Positions 2,586-5,383 of a stretch of DNA of 5,735 bases are shown one piece after another. Below the pieces are notes generated by a model. The model saw only the letters and a program-made list of their open reading frames with translations. It was not told where the DNA came from and did no database searches. Both the position numbers and the translations under genes were made by a program. The stretch is from contig JAFRAF010000064.1 in NCBI GenBank assembly GCA_017405545.1, forward strand, positions 1-5,735, given 5' to 3'. Position 1 is the first letter of the stretch. Every line of letters starts with the position of its first letter. The DNA comes from Oscillospiraceae bacterium (GTDB lineage Bacteria; Bacillota; Clostridia; Oscillospirales; Oscillospiraceae).

Positions 2586-3329
2586 TTACTGATAGAAGCC
2601 CGCGTCGGCGAAGCAAAGGACAAATGTGCCGCCGTTACCAAGATAGAATATGTCCTTATTTGAGAATTCGACTTTTATATCGTTATAGCCGGTAATATTG
2701 ACATCAACTGCAACCGGTTTCGATGATTTTGTCATTTTAGGTGAAGTATATATCGTTTTCCCATCTGCGGTAATCGTAATGAACACCGACTCATTGGAAT
2801 TTGTCCCCTCCGGAACAAACAGAGTGCCCTTTAGATGCGAGTACTTCATATCAACAAGGTATTCAACATATGGTTTTCCGCTTCCACCGGTTCCCTTTTC
2901 GTTGCTAATGGCTGAACTGTATGTGTTCCCGTAATTATCGGTAAGTTTATTTGTTGATTTAGCCGAGTTGTCGCTGATACTCGTCATGTCCTTGAGCATC
3001 ACCGTGGGGTATTCAAGCTGGCCGTTCATGTCGCCGAGGTATACCGTATAGGTGGGGCCGTCCCAGTACACGGCCTTGCCCAGGGCAGAGGAGACGGCGC
3101 GCACGGGCAGATAGGTTGTGCCCTGATATATCATGGGCTCCACGGTCTTGCCGTTTACGTCGGTGGGGTGCAGCTTCTGTCCGTCGATGACTATGCTGAT
3201 GCCGCCCACCAGCACGTTGTTGAGTGTGGTCAGACTACCTGCCGCCAGGGACGGGACAATGAGGCCGATAACGAGCAGAGTTGAGAGCACTCCCGCAAAA
3301 AAAGTTGCCAGCCTGGATTTTCTTTTCAT
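2586..3329 (-). CDS. Secreted stalk-domain protein with NPCBM-like C-terminal domain (paralogue 2)
   Basis: Protein of 247 aa with the same architecture as its neighbour: basic N-terminus (MKRKSR), hydrophobic signal segment, cleavage likely after SLAA at residue 30, stalk domain at about 40-98, NPCBM-like domain at about 115-247 (LKGTLFVPEG, ITADGKTIYTSP, VNITGYNDIKVEF, ending DAGFYQ). The frame is open for 16 further codons upstream, but AAGGAGG at 3337-3343 lies 7 nt before the ATG at 3329 and the hydrophobic signal segment begins just after it, so that start is chosen. Between the signal segment and residue 120 it differs from paralogue 1 by a single residue (N for D at 102). The C-terminal half differs widely, has an insert rich in Gly, Ser and Lys near 141-152, and is more AT-rich. 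The gene lies downstream of the CRISPR-like array on the same strand with no terminator in between, so array transcripts may run into it. The ligand is unknown. Confidence 0.85.
   Translation of the reverse strand: MKRKSRLATFFAGVLSTLLVIGLIVPSLAAGSLTTLNNVLVGGISIVIDGQKLHPTDVNGKTVEPMIYQGTTYLPVRAVSSALGKAVYWDGPTYTVYLGDMNGQLEYPTVMLKDMTSISDNSAKSTNKLTDNYGNTYSSAISNEKGTGGSGKPYVEYLVDMKYSHLKGTLFVPEGTNSNESVFITITADGKTIYTSPKMTKSSKPVAVDVNITGYNDIKVEFSNKDIFYLGNGGTFVLCFADAGFYQ
2968..3268 (-). repeat. Duplicated stalk-coding segment, copy 2
   Basis: Second copy of the segment at 1957-2257. The two genes also share an 18-bp stretch covering the ribosome binding site (TTGTTTCCTCCTTGATCA as read on the plus strand). 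A further identical 30-bp stretch spans each stop codon (1603-1632 and 2578-2607). The duplication therefore covered the entire gene, and only the middle of the C-terminal domain has drifted far. Confidence 0.9.
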
Positions 3330-3398
3330 GTTGTTTCCTCCTTGATCATCTTTATTAATCATCTTTGCGTTTTGCAAATCATTGTTAGCTTGTTATCC

Positions 3399-3431
3399 GC
3401 AGACTTCAGCACACGCTGTGCGGATTGCGTC
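3399..3431 (-). repeat. Degenerate terminal CRISPR-like repeat
   Basis: A fourth, imperfect copy of the array repeat, matching the 33-bp consensus at 23 positions. It lies one period (66 bp) beyond the last perfect repeat. The half that begins GACGCA on the minus strand is best kept. A decayed repeat at the end far from the leader is typical of CRISPR arrays and supports transcription on the minus strand, away from the nuclease gene. Confidence 0.65.
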
Positions 3432-3464
3432 GATATGGAATCTAAGACCATCTTCATGTTAAAA

Positions 3465-3633
3465 CTTTGCCTCAGCTCCCGCTGCGCGGAATGCGTCGGC
3501 GGGAGCTTGCCCTGGGCGCAGAGCTCGGCGCTCTTTGCCTCAGCTCCCGCTGCGCGGAATGCGTCTGCACCGGCGCCGGCATAGCGCCCGTGTACTGCAT
3601 CTTTGCCTCAGCTCCCGCTGCGCGGAATGCGTC
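3465..3633 (-). CRISPR. Short CRISPR-like array downstream of a TnpB/Cas12-like gene
   Basis: Three identical 33-bp repeats lie at 3465-3497, 3533-3565 and 3601-3633, an exact 68-bp period. The two intervening sequences are 35 nt each (3498-3532 and 3566-3600) and match each other only at chance level. A degenerate fourth repeat at 3399-3431 defines a third spacer of 33 nt (3432-3464), which is AT-richer than the others. On the minus strand the repeat begins GACGCATTCCGCGCAGCGGG and ends GCTGAGGCAAAG. It contains a small hairpin (CCGC-GCA-GCGG). Allowing one variable base, the repeat extends 3 bp further on the plus-strand right side. The array follows the nuclease gene on the same strand, and an anti-repeat lies between them. 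Against a CRISPR call: there are few repeats, the two GC-rich spacers can fold on themselves, and no adaptation genes are in view. It could instead be a tandem structured element tied to the nuclease. Confidence 0.72.
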
Positions 3634-3646
3634 GGCAAAAGCGCAC

Positions 3647-3829
3647 AAAAAATGACGCATTCTTTCAGCAAGGTGCTGTGAGCAGGTAGATAGCTTTTCA
3701 GGTCGCAGGACCCGCGCTGACTATTTTCCCTTACTCTTCTGCTGTCAAAGCATCCTATGATGCCATTAGCGACAGCCCCGGACGGGCAATCGACCGGTTG
3801 GGAGGTGCGAACCCCCCGGTATTTCTGTG
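3647..3829 (-). ncRNA. Putative tracrRNA / omega-RNA-like scaffold
   Basis: This non-coding stretch begins right after the nuclease stop codon and is dense in hairpins. In minus-strand order: a 10-bp bulged stem (3793-3797 with 3816-3820, then 3801-3806 with 3811-3815) on a UCGC loop; a GCCC/GGGC hairpin (3775-3787); a two-level hairpin in which GCTGTC/GACAGC (3741-3776) encloses GCATC/GATGC (3750-3763); GGTC/GACC (3701-3712); and CAGCA/TGCTG (3666-3678). It ends in an anti-repeat (3654-3672) and T6 (3652-3647). Structured RNA at the 3' end of the gene is the known position of TnpB omega RNA. Here the guide-bearing part appears to have moved into the array, leaving a tracrRNA-like scaffold. 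No own promoter was recognised; it may be made from the nuclease transcript. Exact RNA ends are unknown, and the 5' end may lie inside the coding region. Confidence 0.6.
3654..3672 (-). other. Anti-repeat complementary to the CRISPR-like repeat
   Basis: The minus-strand sequence CTTGCTGAAAGAATGCGTC can pair with the first 20 nt of the repeat. GAATGCGTC pairs with GACGCATTC (9 bp). An AAA/CGCG internal loop follows, and then CTTGCTG pairs with CAGCGGG (7 bp, two of them G-U). It is followed by A and six T. It lies 20 nt from the first repeat, so in an unprocessed transcript it would form a hairpin with that repeat; once cut, it would act between two RNAs. The CTTGCTG part competes with the local CAGCA/TGCTG hairpin. 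Confidence 0.65.
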
Positions 3830-5383
3830 TCAGCTTGCTGTTCGCACTATGCCCATGCTGGCAACTGTCCGTCGTGCGGAACAGAGTTTTTTGATCACTT
3901 CGTCGTGCATTATTACAAATCTTTCATAGTCCCGCTCAAGGGCGGGCTGTTCAAATCCCGTTTTTTCCTCATTTGTATGCATAAGCAGAAATGCTGAATA
4001 TAAATCGCGCTGAATCCTTCTGCCGTCCGGCATGTCGTTCCATCTCTGGCTCAGTTCCTTTTCGGTATACTTTTGGGTGATGTGATTGTACTGGCTTGCC
4101 TTGACCGAAAGAGAATCCTTGATTACTCCCTCCATGCCCCGGGACTTGAGCTTCAAGTCCAATATCCTGATAAGCGTCGCCGGGGCCTTGTTCCCCACGG
4201 ATTTGCCGAAGCGCTTCTTTCGCTTGTATCTGCCGGTCTTTTCGGATATCTCGGTTTTCTTCGCCCTGTGGGTCAGGCTCGGCCAGTTCATATCCTCAAC
4301 ATAAAATGTGTCACCCAGGGATAGCAGATGGTTCGCAAGCTCCGTGTGCTGCCGCTTCCTCGTATCCGCCTGCTTTCTCAGCAGTGAAGCCAGCTCGTGC
4401 TGGTATTTCAGATAGCGCTTCGACTTCTTCCACGTGAGCTTCACGCCTCGCTTTATAGTGCCGTCCTCGGCGTAGTTATCCGGGTTGGAAGCCCGGCGGC
4501 TTCTGTCCATTTTGCGCTGGATAATCCGCTTTTCGCGCTCGATGTTTTTGACCTCGTCGGCAAGCTCCAGCAGATCAGCCTCCTTCTCGGAAACATATGC
4601 TATGGTCTGGGGGCCTATATCTATCCCGACGGCGCCGCTCCCCACGGGGTGTATGACCTCGCCGGTCTCTTTATCGCACTTGATGACGGGCTTACCCTCA
4701 AGCGATAACTGCACATACCAGCGGGTCTTGTTTTTTCCCGGTTTTCTGAGTATCCTGCAAAACTTTACCCTGTATTTCAGCATCTCCTCTTCATATTTAT
4801 TTCCGGGGTCAAACTTAACACGCAGCCTTAAATCTTTCCATTTTACAACTCCGTCACGGTATATAATCTCTGTTCCACAGCTTTTACCTGTTTTTGAGCC
4901 ACCGGCGACCGAATTCATCGTTCCGCGTTTTTTAAAATGTATCTTTTTCCCTTTTCCTTTAAAATAATCATTAAACGCATCCCAGACCCGGGGCGCGATC
5001 CCGTGGACGGCAACGCCGGAAGCGACGTTCTTGTTGAAGTGCTTATAAAAGAACTTCATATCCTTGTTGAAGTCATTATCCGTTATCCCTGCTTTTTCCC
5101 GCATGGCTTGTAGTTTTTTATTAAGGCTTTCTATTTCCGGCGTTTTATTGCCCTCTTCGTCGCGCAGTCCCTTCTCCGCGATAATTCTCTTTTTCTCCGC
5201 CGTTATCGCCTGATAGTCTTCGCTCTTCTCCAGCCGACGCAGCTTTTTAAGCTCATAGTTCAGGAGCGTATTATAGATTTGTCTGGCGATCTCGAATCTC
5301 TTTTCAAGGCGGTCGCTCTGCCATTTTTCAATGACCAACGGCAAAGTGAGACTGCATGTATCTGTTGTCGATCTTTTTGCCAT
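3830..5383 (-). CDS. TnpB/Cas12-like RNA-guided RuvC nuclease, zinc ribbon absent
   Basis: Protein of 517 aa in the TnpB (OrfB of IS605)/type V Cas12 superfamily, longer than a typical TnpB of about 400 aa. The N-terminal part (about 1-245) has the wedge/REC-like start (SLTLPL, then RFEIARQIYNTLLNYELKKL), a charged helical insert at about 45-100, and IHFKKRG at 148-154. The RuvC-like nuclease follows. Its catalytic acids all seem present: D255 in GIDIGPQTIA, E363 in FYVEDMN and D460 in IQRDLYSAFLL. Between E363 and D460, where TnpB normally carries two CxxC pairs of a zinc ribbon, there is no cysteine; the stretch instead holds SQYNHIT and KELSQRW. The start is the ATG at 5383, with AGGAGG at 5388-5393; the frame also opens at a TTG six codons earlier, but the ribosome site lies inside that extension. 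Downstream on the same strand come a structured RNA and a CRISPR-like array, so RNA-guided DNA cleavage is inferred. No tnpA is nearby. It could instead be an ordinary decayed IS605 accessory gene. Confidence 0.85.
   Translation of the reverse strand: MAKRSTTDTCSLTLPLVIEKWQSDRLEKRFEIARQIYNTLLNYELKKLRRLEKSEDYQAITAEKKRIIAEKGLRDEEGNKTPEIESLNKKLQAMREKAGITDNDFNKDMKFFYKHFNKNVASGVAVHGIAPRVWDAFNDYFKGKGKKIHFKKRGTMNSVAGGSKTGKSCGTEIIYRDGVVKWKDLRLRVKFDPGNKYEEEMLKYRVKFCRILRKPGKNKTRWYVQLSLEGKPVIKCDKETGEVIHPVGSGAVGIDIGPQTIAYVSEKEADLLELADEVKNIEREKRIIQRKMDRSRRASNPDNYAEDGTIKRGVKLTWKKSKRYLKYQHELASLLRKQADTRKRQHTELANHLLSLGDTFYVEDMNWPSLTHRAKKTEISEKTGRYKRKKRFGKSVGNKAPATLIRILDLKLKSRGMEGVIKDSLSVKASQYNHITQKYTEKELSQRWNDMPDGRRIQRDLYSAFLLMHTNEEKTGFEQPALERDYERFVIMHDEVIKKLCSARRTVASMGIVRTAS

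Follow-up and report, generated by a model that had tools for sequence, protein, structure and literature searches.

A TnpB-like nuclease, scaffold and repeat-spacer array in an Oscillospiraceae contig: a probable small type V-like CRISPR effector with a split omega RNA

The window analyzed here is an entire contig of 5,735 bases (JAFRAF010000064.1) from an Oscillospiraceae bacterium, the genome of which is assembled to 1.78 Mb and is 68.6% complete. Its minus strand carries, in this order, a gene for a TnpB-like RuvC nuclease, a non-coding scaffold and a repeat-spacer array. In all likelihood these parts make up a small type V-like CRISPR effector guided by an omega RNA that was divided within the loop of its last hairpin. 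The evidence consists of the gene and its acidic residues, the array, covariation in the scaffold, pairing between scaffold and repeat across loci, homology of the scaffold to the omega RNA, the site of the break and a supported group of array-bearing loci in the protein tree. The parts had been recognized, with a degenerate last repeat, in a sequence-only reading of the same stretch, and both their common strand and the positions given there are correct. They are as follows.

3833–5383, minus: TnpB-like RuvC nuclease gene, 517 residues; ATG at 5383, stop codon at 3830–3832
3634–3829, minus: non-coding scaffold, resembling a trans-activating CRISPR RNA (tracrRNA) and likely derived from omega RNA; 196 bases, from stop codon to repeat 1
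3800–3817, minus: first scaffold hairpin (GGGGGGT/ACCTCCC), weakly conserved
3673–3799, minus: core of the scaffold, its helices conserved; scores 141.8 bits against covariance model R1, which was built with the window's core included
3673–3678, minus: anti-repeat 2; pairs with repeat letters in 3609–3614, four pairs in the window
3654–3662, minus: anti-repeat 1 (GAATGCGTC); pairs at 9 of 9 positions with the repeat 5′ end, 3625–3633
3601–3633, minus: repeat 1, 33 nt, directly adjoining the scaffold
3566–3600, minus: spacer 1, 35 nt
3533–3565, minus: repeat 2, 33 nt, identical to repeat 1
3498–3532, minus: spacer 2, 35 nt
3465–3497, minus: repeat 3, 33 nt, identical to repeat 1
3432–3464, minus: spacer 3, 33 nt
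3399–3431, minus: degenerate terminal repeat at the far end of the array, 10 of 33 positions mismatched

The Nuclease

The ATG of the nuclease gene is preceded, a few bases 5′, by AGGAGGT. The predicted RuvC acidic triad consists of D255 (codon 4619–4621), E363 and D460; all three are invariant among 63 sequences, and the triad is intact. No zinc-ribbon cysteine pairs are found in the stretch ahead of D460. The protein matches the guided_TnpB profile (E 2.8e-14, 53 bits, under the family cut-off of 100), and its fold is nearest to TnpB, which refines the earlier assignment to TnpB/Cas12-like nucleases. The profile match, the fold and the presence of array-less TnpB relatives in the same tree place it in the TnpB lineage. 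Matches to the Cas12f (V-F), Cas12u4 and C2c8 profiles are weak; for C2c8 (NF038192), the score of 35.2 bits lies far below the curated cut-off of 350. A sequence search of solved structures gave no relative of the window protein or of the proteins at loci L044, L048 and L062, and no solved Cas12f structure was matched by sequence.

The Array and Its Recurrence in Relatives

The 33-nt repeat, GACGCATTCCGCGCAGCGGGAGCTGAGGCAAAG, is present in three identical copies followed by the degenerate fourth, with periods of 68, 68 and 66. Of 181 loci encoding relatives of the protein in genome contigs, 80 were kept; a scan of viral contigs gave 37. The close relatives are 23 loci (L004–L026) that are 55–67% identical to the window protein; the 94 others are 31–46% identical by best segment. 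L002 and L003 are seemingly the same places as L010 and L014. A close locus was assessable if at least 300 nt lay downstream, and an array was counted if within 700 nt. L021 and L022 end too early. The gene-scaffold-array order, which the sequence-only reading had proposed to look for in related genomes, recurs in 19 of the 21 close relatives that could be assessed, and the repeat sequence differs among them. The other two, L009 (6512–6966), a near relative of the seven-repeat locus L026, and L020 (6554–6850), have a single unit after the scaffold; either array loss or a return to a one-piece guide would account for them.

Among the distant loci, 92 of 94 are assessable. A downstream array is found in L048 and in the viral locus L090, upstream arrays are found in L074, L078 and L080, and the remaining 87 have none. 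Other repeats that were flagged, among them pairs on the upstream side of L059 and L079 and on the downstream side of L080, do not form arrays. L090 (6500–7100) lies on a 90.7-kb viral contig, where some four diverged repeats with a period of 65–68 come after the gene of a 40% identical relative. The three upstream cases (L074, 4481–5001; L078, 1–383; L080, 480–874) are from Bacteroidales and have a scaffold-like RNA and an array ahead of the gene for a relative 35–37% identical. Their repeats are about 38 nt (GGTGTTAATCACC... and variants), the spacers are about 28 nt, and a decayed last repeat sits beside the start codon. By eye, GGTGATTA ahead of the first repeat could pair with that repeat. 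Neither of the covariance models described below, R1 and R2, matches this scaffold-like RNA.

The window, the 19 close relatives and L048 together have 21 arrays of 2–11 repeats each, with 87 spacers in all. Spacer length is narrowly distributed: 42 spacers are 34 nt, 20 are 33, 17 are 35, and four are 36, with one each of 19, 32, 39 and 42 nt, so that 79 of the 87 fall at 33–35 nt. Inner repeats differ from the first at a mean of 0.23 of 33 positions; for the last repeat the mean is 4.95. A decayed last repeat with nearly identical inner ones is what one would expect if new units enter at the scaffold side. Just ahead of the spacer, the repeats of array loci end in GAGGCAAAG or a variant. An identical run of 18 letters is shared by just one pair among the 87 spacers, both within L011 (2700–3450), where spacers 1 and 6 are the same spacer.

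Pairing within the Scaffold and between Scaffold and Repeat

The scaffold with repeat 1 folds at −87.3 kcal/mol (z −2.71), and none of 200 shuffled sequences folds as well. A structure of 41 pairs is kept in 24 loci, namely the window, 22 close relatives and L048. In these, 96.0% of cells pair, compared with 33–44% when the partners are slid. Changes on both sides affect 16 pairs and 76 cells, compared with 9.3 and 23.3 in shuffles, none of 500 of which is as high. No Rfam family was matched.

The sequence-only reading had the scaffold end in one anti-repeat. There are two such segments: anti-repeat 1 pairs at all nine positions with the repeat 5′ end, and anti-repeat 2, further 5′, corresponds to the 5′ side of the hairpin that closes the omega RNA. 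In the window, CAGC of anti-repeat 2 (3675–3678) pairs with GCTG in the 3′ part of the repeat. Across loci the helix is formed by CACAGCG and variants in the scaffold and CGCTGAG and variants in the repeat; wherever a locus has letters at these places, the first four pairs of the helix are standard ones, and compensatory changes occur. When repeats are swapped among the 24 loci, mean complementarity drops from 16.5 to 14.2 for anti-repeat 1 and from 16.1 to 13.7 for anti-repeat 2. For each, the permutation p of the own-repeat preference is 5e-5, the limit of 20,000 permutations. The own repeat exceeds the mean of swapped repeats in 17 of 24 loci for anti-repeat 1 and in 22 of 24 for anti-repeat 2; that of the window ranks first and eleventh, respectively. 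Since the order recurs in the close relatives and a locus's own repeat outdoes swapped ones, the gene-scaffold-array arrangement is not due to chance.

Homology to the Omega RNA and the Place of the Break

Covariance model R1 was made from 23 close loci only and run on 70 further loci; in 65 no array had been detected (two of the 65 are too short downstream to judge). It matches 25 of the 65 (E < 0.01), in each case within 65 nt of the gene end, at the omega RNA position; it also matches L048. A match in L080 was rejected, as its position is away from the gene. Model R2, made from loci with and without arrays, matches 20 of 36 array-less loci missed by R1 (E < 0.01); L102 is cut off by the contig end. 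Together, the models give 45 of 65 array-less loci a homologous RNA 3′ of the gene. In 245 genomes of the class, R1 matched the window alone (E ≤ 0.001, strict filters). An alignment that combines 35 loci of both kinds shows two-sided changes in 31 of its 35 pairs, and 93.7% of its cells are paired, compared with 37–46% when slid; this alignment, A5, was fitted to the model, so these counts lean towards the model and to that extent weigh against our interpretation.

In 29 of 43 array-less loci TCAG, the end of the omega RNA, lies 22–26 nt past the model end, and in 27 of these 29 the stretch between folds into a hairpin, the exceptions being L084 and L088; the loop is often one of four bases. 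For the remaining 14 of the 43, the model end is mostly placed elsewhere. The model end is anti-repeat 2 in array loci and lies on the 5′ side of the last hairpin in those 29 array-less loci, and in array loci the matching 3′ arm of that hairpin sits in the repeat. With the 5′ side in the scaffold and the 3′ arm in the repeat, the loop of the last hairpin is the most likely site at which the guide RNA came apart. The earlier suggestion that an omega RNA had been split in two is thereby strengthened and given a site. In the simplest account, this loop was broken, an insertion there brought in anti-repeat 1, and the 3′ part was multiplied. The window has no one-piece omega RNA ending at the right end of the element, as the 3′ arm lies in the repeat and the array follows.

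Array-Bearing Loci in the Protein Tree

A careful tree was made from 60 proteins, with L023 not included and four long-branch array-less rows left out. All 24 array-bearing rows fall into one group of 27 (support 99/98), which also holds L044, L009 and L022. Within it, the window's clade has 21 rows (100/100). In a quick tree with 82 rows, 29 make up the corresponding group (97), including five without a seen array (L009, L022, L044, L065 and L116), and the window's clade has a support of 94 in the Shimodaira–Hasegawa-like approximate likelihood ratio test (SH-aLRT). A single gain of the array is favored; a very long outgroup branch leaves the root uncertain. L044 (6524–6760) is an Oscillibacter locus on a long branch, with no array and an RNA unmatched by R2.

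Contrary Evidence and Alternative Explanations

Several observations weigh against a split-guide CRISPR effector. R1 missed 40 of the 65 array-less loci, and R2 missed 16 of its 36 as well as L074, L078, L080 and L090. The own repeat ranked first in just 12 of 24 loci for anti-repeat 1 and 11 of 24 for anti-repeat 2; a few loci have their best pairing partner elsewhere in the searched stretch. L044 lies within the array group without an array; L065 and L116, two of the four omitted long-branch rows, are not separated from array-bearing rows in the quick tree. L009 has one repeat unit, and L020 has one unit and a broken gene. Cas1 was found in 5 of 21 locus-bearing genomes, many of the assemblies being incomplete, and not in the window's own genome. 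Spacer targets were sought with few spacers and with poor coverage of such hosts: the three window spacers (exact 22-mers) and one spacer each of L026, L016 and L010 (wobble patterns) had no match in viral contigs, seven array stretches had no convincing match in phage records (four had none at all), and 295 genomes of the order, with two candidates scored per genome, yielded nothing convincing.

Some matches from these searches were taken as chance. These are the phage-record matches of L011 (E 0.06, nine mycobacteriophages), L008 (E 0.7, one record) and L016 (E 0.9, 23 records) and, for the window array, matches at E ≤ 1 in 230 of the 295 genomes, the best non-self one being short, at E 2.8e-4.

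The locus might be nothing more than an IS605-type TnpB whose omega RNA is in one piece, with functionless repeats that stem from a local tandem duplication of its 3′ end. The TnpB fold and family matches fit this, as do the contiguity of repeat 1 with the scaffold and the single, omega RNA-like units of L009 and L020. We consider it very improbable: arrays are kept in 19 of 21 assessable close relatives, spacer length and inner repeats vary little, the repeats co-vary with the scaffold, and an array is lacking in 87 of the 92 distant relatives that could be assessed. Scarcely any credence is due to a second reading, in which an existing CRISPR array was recruited beside a TnpB and a stray copy of the repeat, not the omega RNA, gave rise to a new tracrRNA. 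A passage of the 2025 classification (PMC12669027) holds that tracrRNAs are thought to have arisen independently many times, and anti-repeat 1 could be a copied repeat end; the scaffold core, however, is homologous to the omega RNA region, and anti-repeat 2 stands where the last hairpin of the omega RNA has its 5′ side.

A further alternative grants the split guide and places its work outside adaptive immunity, in regulation, in competition between elements or on a fixed set of targets. Cas1 not found in 16 of 21 genomes, the shortness of the arrays (2–11 repeats) and the want of a spacer target all speak for this. We hold it to be unlikely, though a good deal less so than the other two, given the invariant triad, spacers that share 18 letters in one pair only, and a last repeat that decays while the inner ones stay nearly identical, as in arrays growing at one end.

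Proposed Mechanism

The effector with a split omega RNA, which we prefer, would work as follows. Scaffold and array would be transcribed in the direction of the gene. The 5′ part of the omega RNA would stay as a tracrRNA-like scaffold, and the 3′ arm would become the repeat. Each repeat would then pair with the scaffold through the two anti-repeats, rebuilding the omega RNA fold in trans. The nuclease would bind the rebuilt RNA, with a spacer, mostly 33–35 nt, as the guide, and its RuvC site would cut matching DNA, as fold and triad suggest. As repeat 1 directly follows the scaffold, scaffold, repeat 1 and spacer 1 could also serve as a one-piece guide. RNA processing, DNA targets and spacer uptake are presumed, and use in defense is plausible; with Cas1 in few of the genomes and no spacer target at hand, we can only infer processing, cleavage and immunity.

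Both guide states occur here in one protein family, alignable and with covariation on either side of the break, which makes the route testable base by base. A further question is how arrays gain spacers in hosts in which no Cas1 was found. The nuclease is also compact, and its scaffold and repeat are short.

Genomic Context

No TnpA was found among the window proteins. A TnpA-type transposase (Y1_Tnp) is found in 7 of 21 genomes; in G331 it is on the same contig as the locus, about 40 kb away. The guided_TnpB family has one match in six of seven genomes searched, and the seventh has one further, canonical TnpB. This low copy number contrasts with multi-copy transposons such as that of Cytobacillus citreus (six of the 80 loci). 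Among 181 flanking open reading frames at 25 loci, the largest group links three loci and overlies the array itself, and six groups link two; no flanking family is common to more than three of the 25.

Elsewhere in the window, the plus strand encodes a DUF5940 protein (3–326) and the alpha subunit of glycine/sarcosine/betaine reductase complex C (330–1490, 544 bits), a hint that the host ferments amino acids. Two tandem paralogues on the minus strand (1611–2318 and 2586–3377) have copper amine oxidase N-terminal-like and NPCBM domains and a common 300-nt stretch of 96% identity.

Comparison with Known Systems

Transposon-CRISPR intermediates (TranCs) combine a TnpB-like protein, a CRISPR array and a split guide RNA, and reportedly cut DNA with a CRISPR RNA as well as with a one-piece guide. 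In one of them, LaTranC, the guide RNA is reportedly split into a tracr-like and a cr-like part; by their PDB entry titles, its solved structures are 9JFO, 9JFP and 9JFQ. The window protein has the same overall fold, and the three features said to mark LaTranC, namely the TnpB-like protein, the array and the two-part guide, recur here as read from the sequence. As a kind, then, the locus appears to be a TranC-like intermediate as that class is generally understood: a TnpB-lineage protein, an array at the omega RNA position and a tracr part homologous to the omega RNA. The sequence-only reading, which had named TranC, holds to this extent, but kinship to the solved LaTranC is marginal by sequence. 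LaTranC is the top PDB hit of the A4 profile at E 0.078, and the A1 profile gives none at E ≤ 1, although LaTranC can be found in the structure library, where it is matched by the TnpB of L129. Judged by sequence, the protein looks like a separate lineage.

We suggest, with about even confidence, that this separate lineage keeps the whole route within one family. That is, a one-piece omega RNA would have been cut once, in the terminal loop, in the ancestor of the array group; its 3′ half would have multiplied, with arrays persisting in most hosts without detectable Cas1; and in Bacteroidales scaffold and array would have moved ahead of the gene.

Cas12f (V-F), Cas12u4 and C2c8 likewise join a RuvC nuclease to an array. 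The array-less relatives (such as L027–L047 and L084–L089), 31–46% identical by best segment, differ in having a one-piece omega RNA and no array. ISDra2 TnpB, as described in part of PMC10097598, has a one-piece omega RNA and 408 residues, whereas here a two-part guide with an array accompanies a protein of 517 residues in which no zinc-ribbon cysteines are seen. A passage of the same paper proposes the splitting of omega RNA into tracrRNA and CRISPR RNA from structures of RNAs without sequence similarity. About 50 independent gains of arrays by TnpBs are counted in a section of the 2025 classification (PMC12669027), so the present clade may already be among them. The kind, a TranC-like intermediate, is thus already known, and the clade looks like a further lineage of it, possibly within the published TranC groups.
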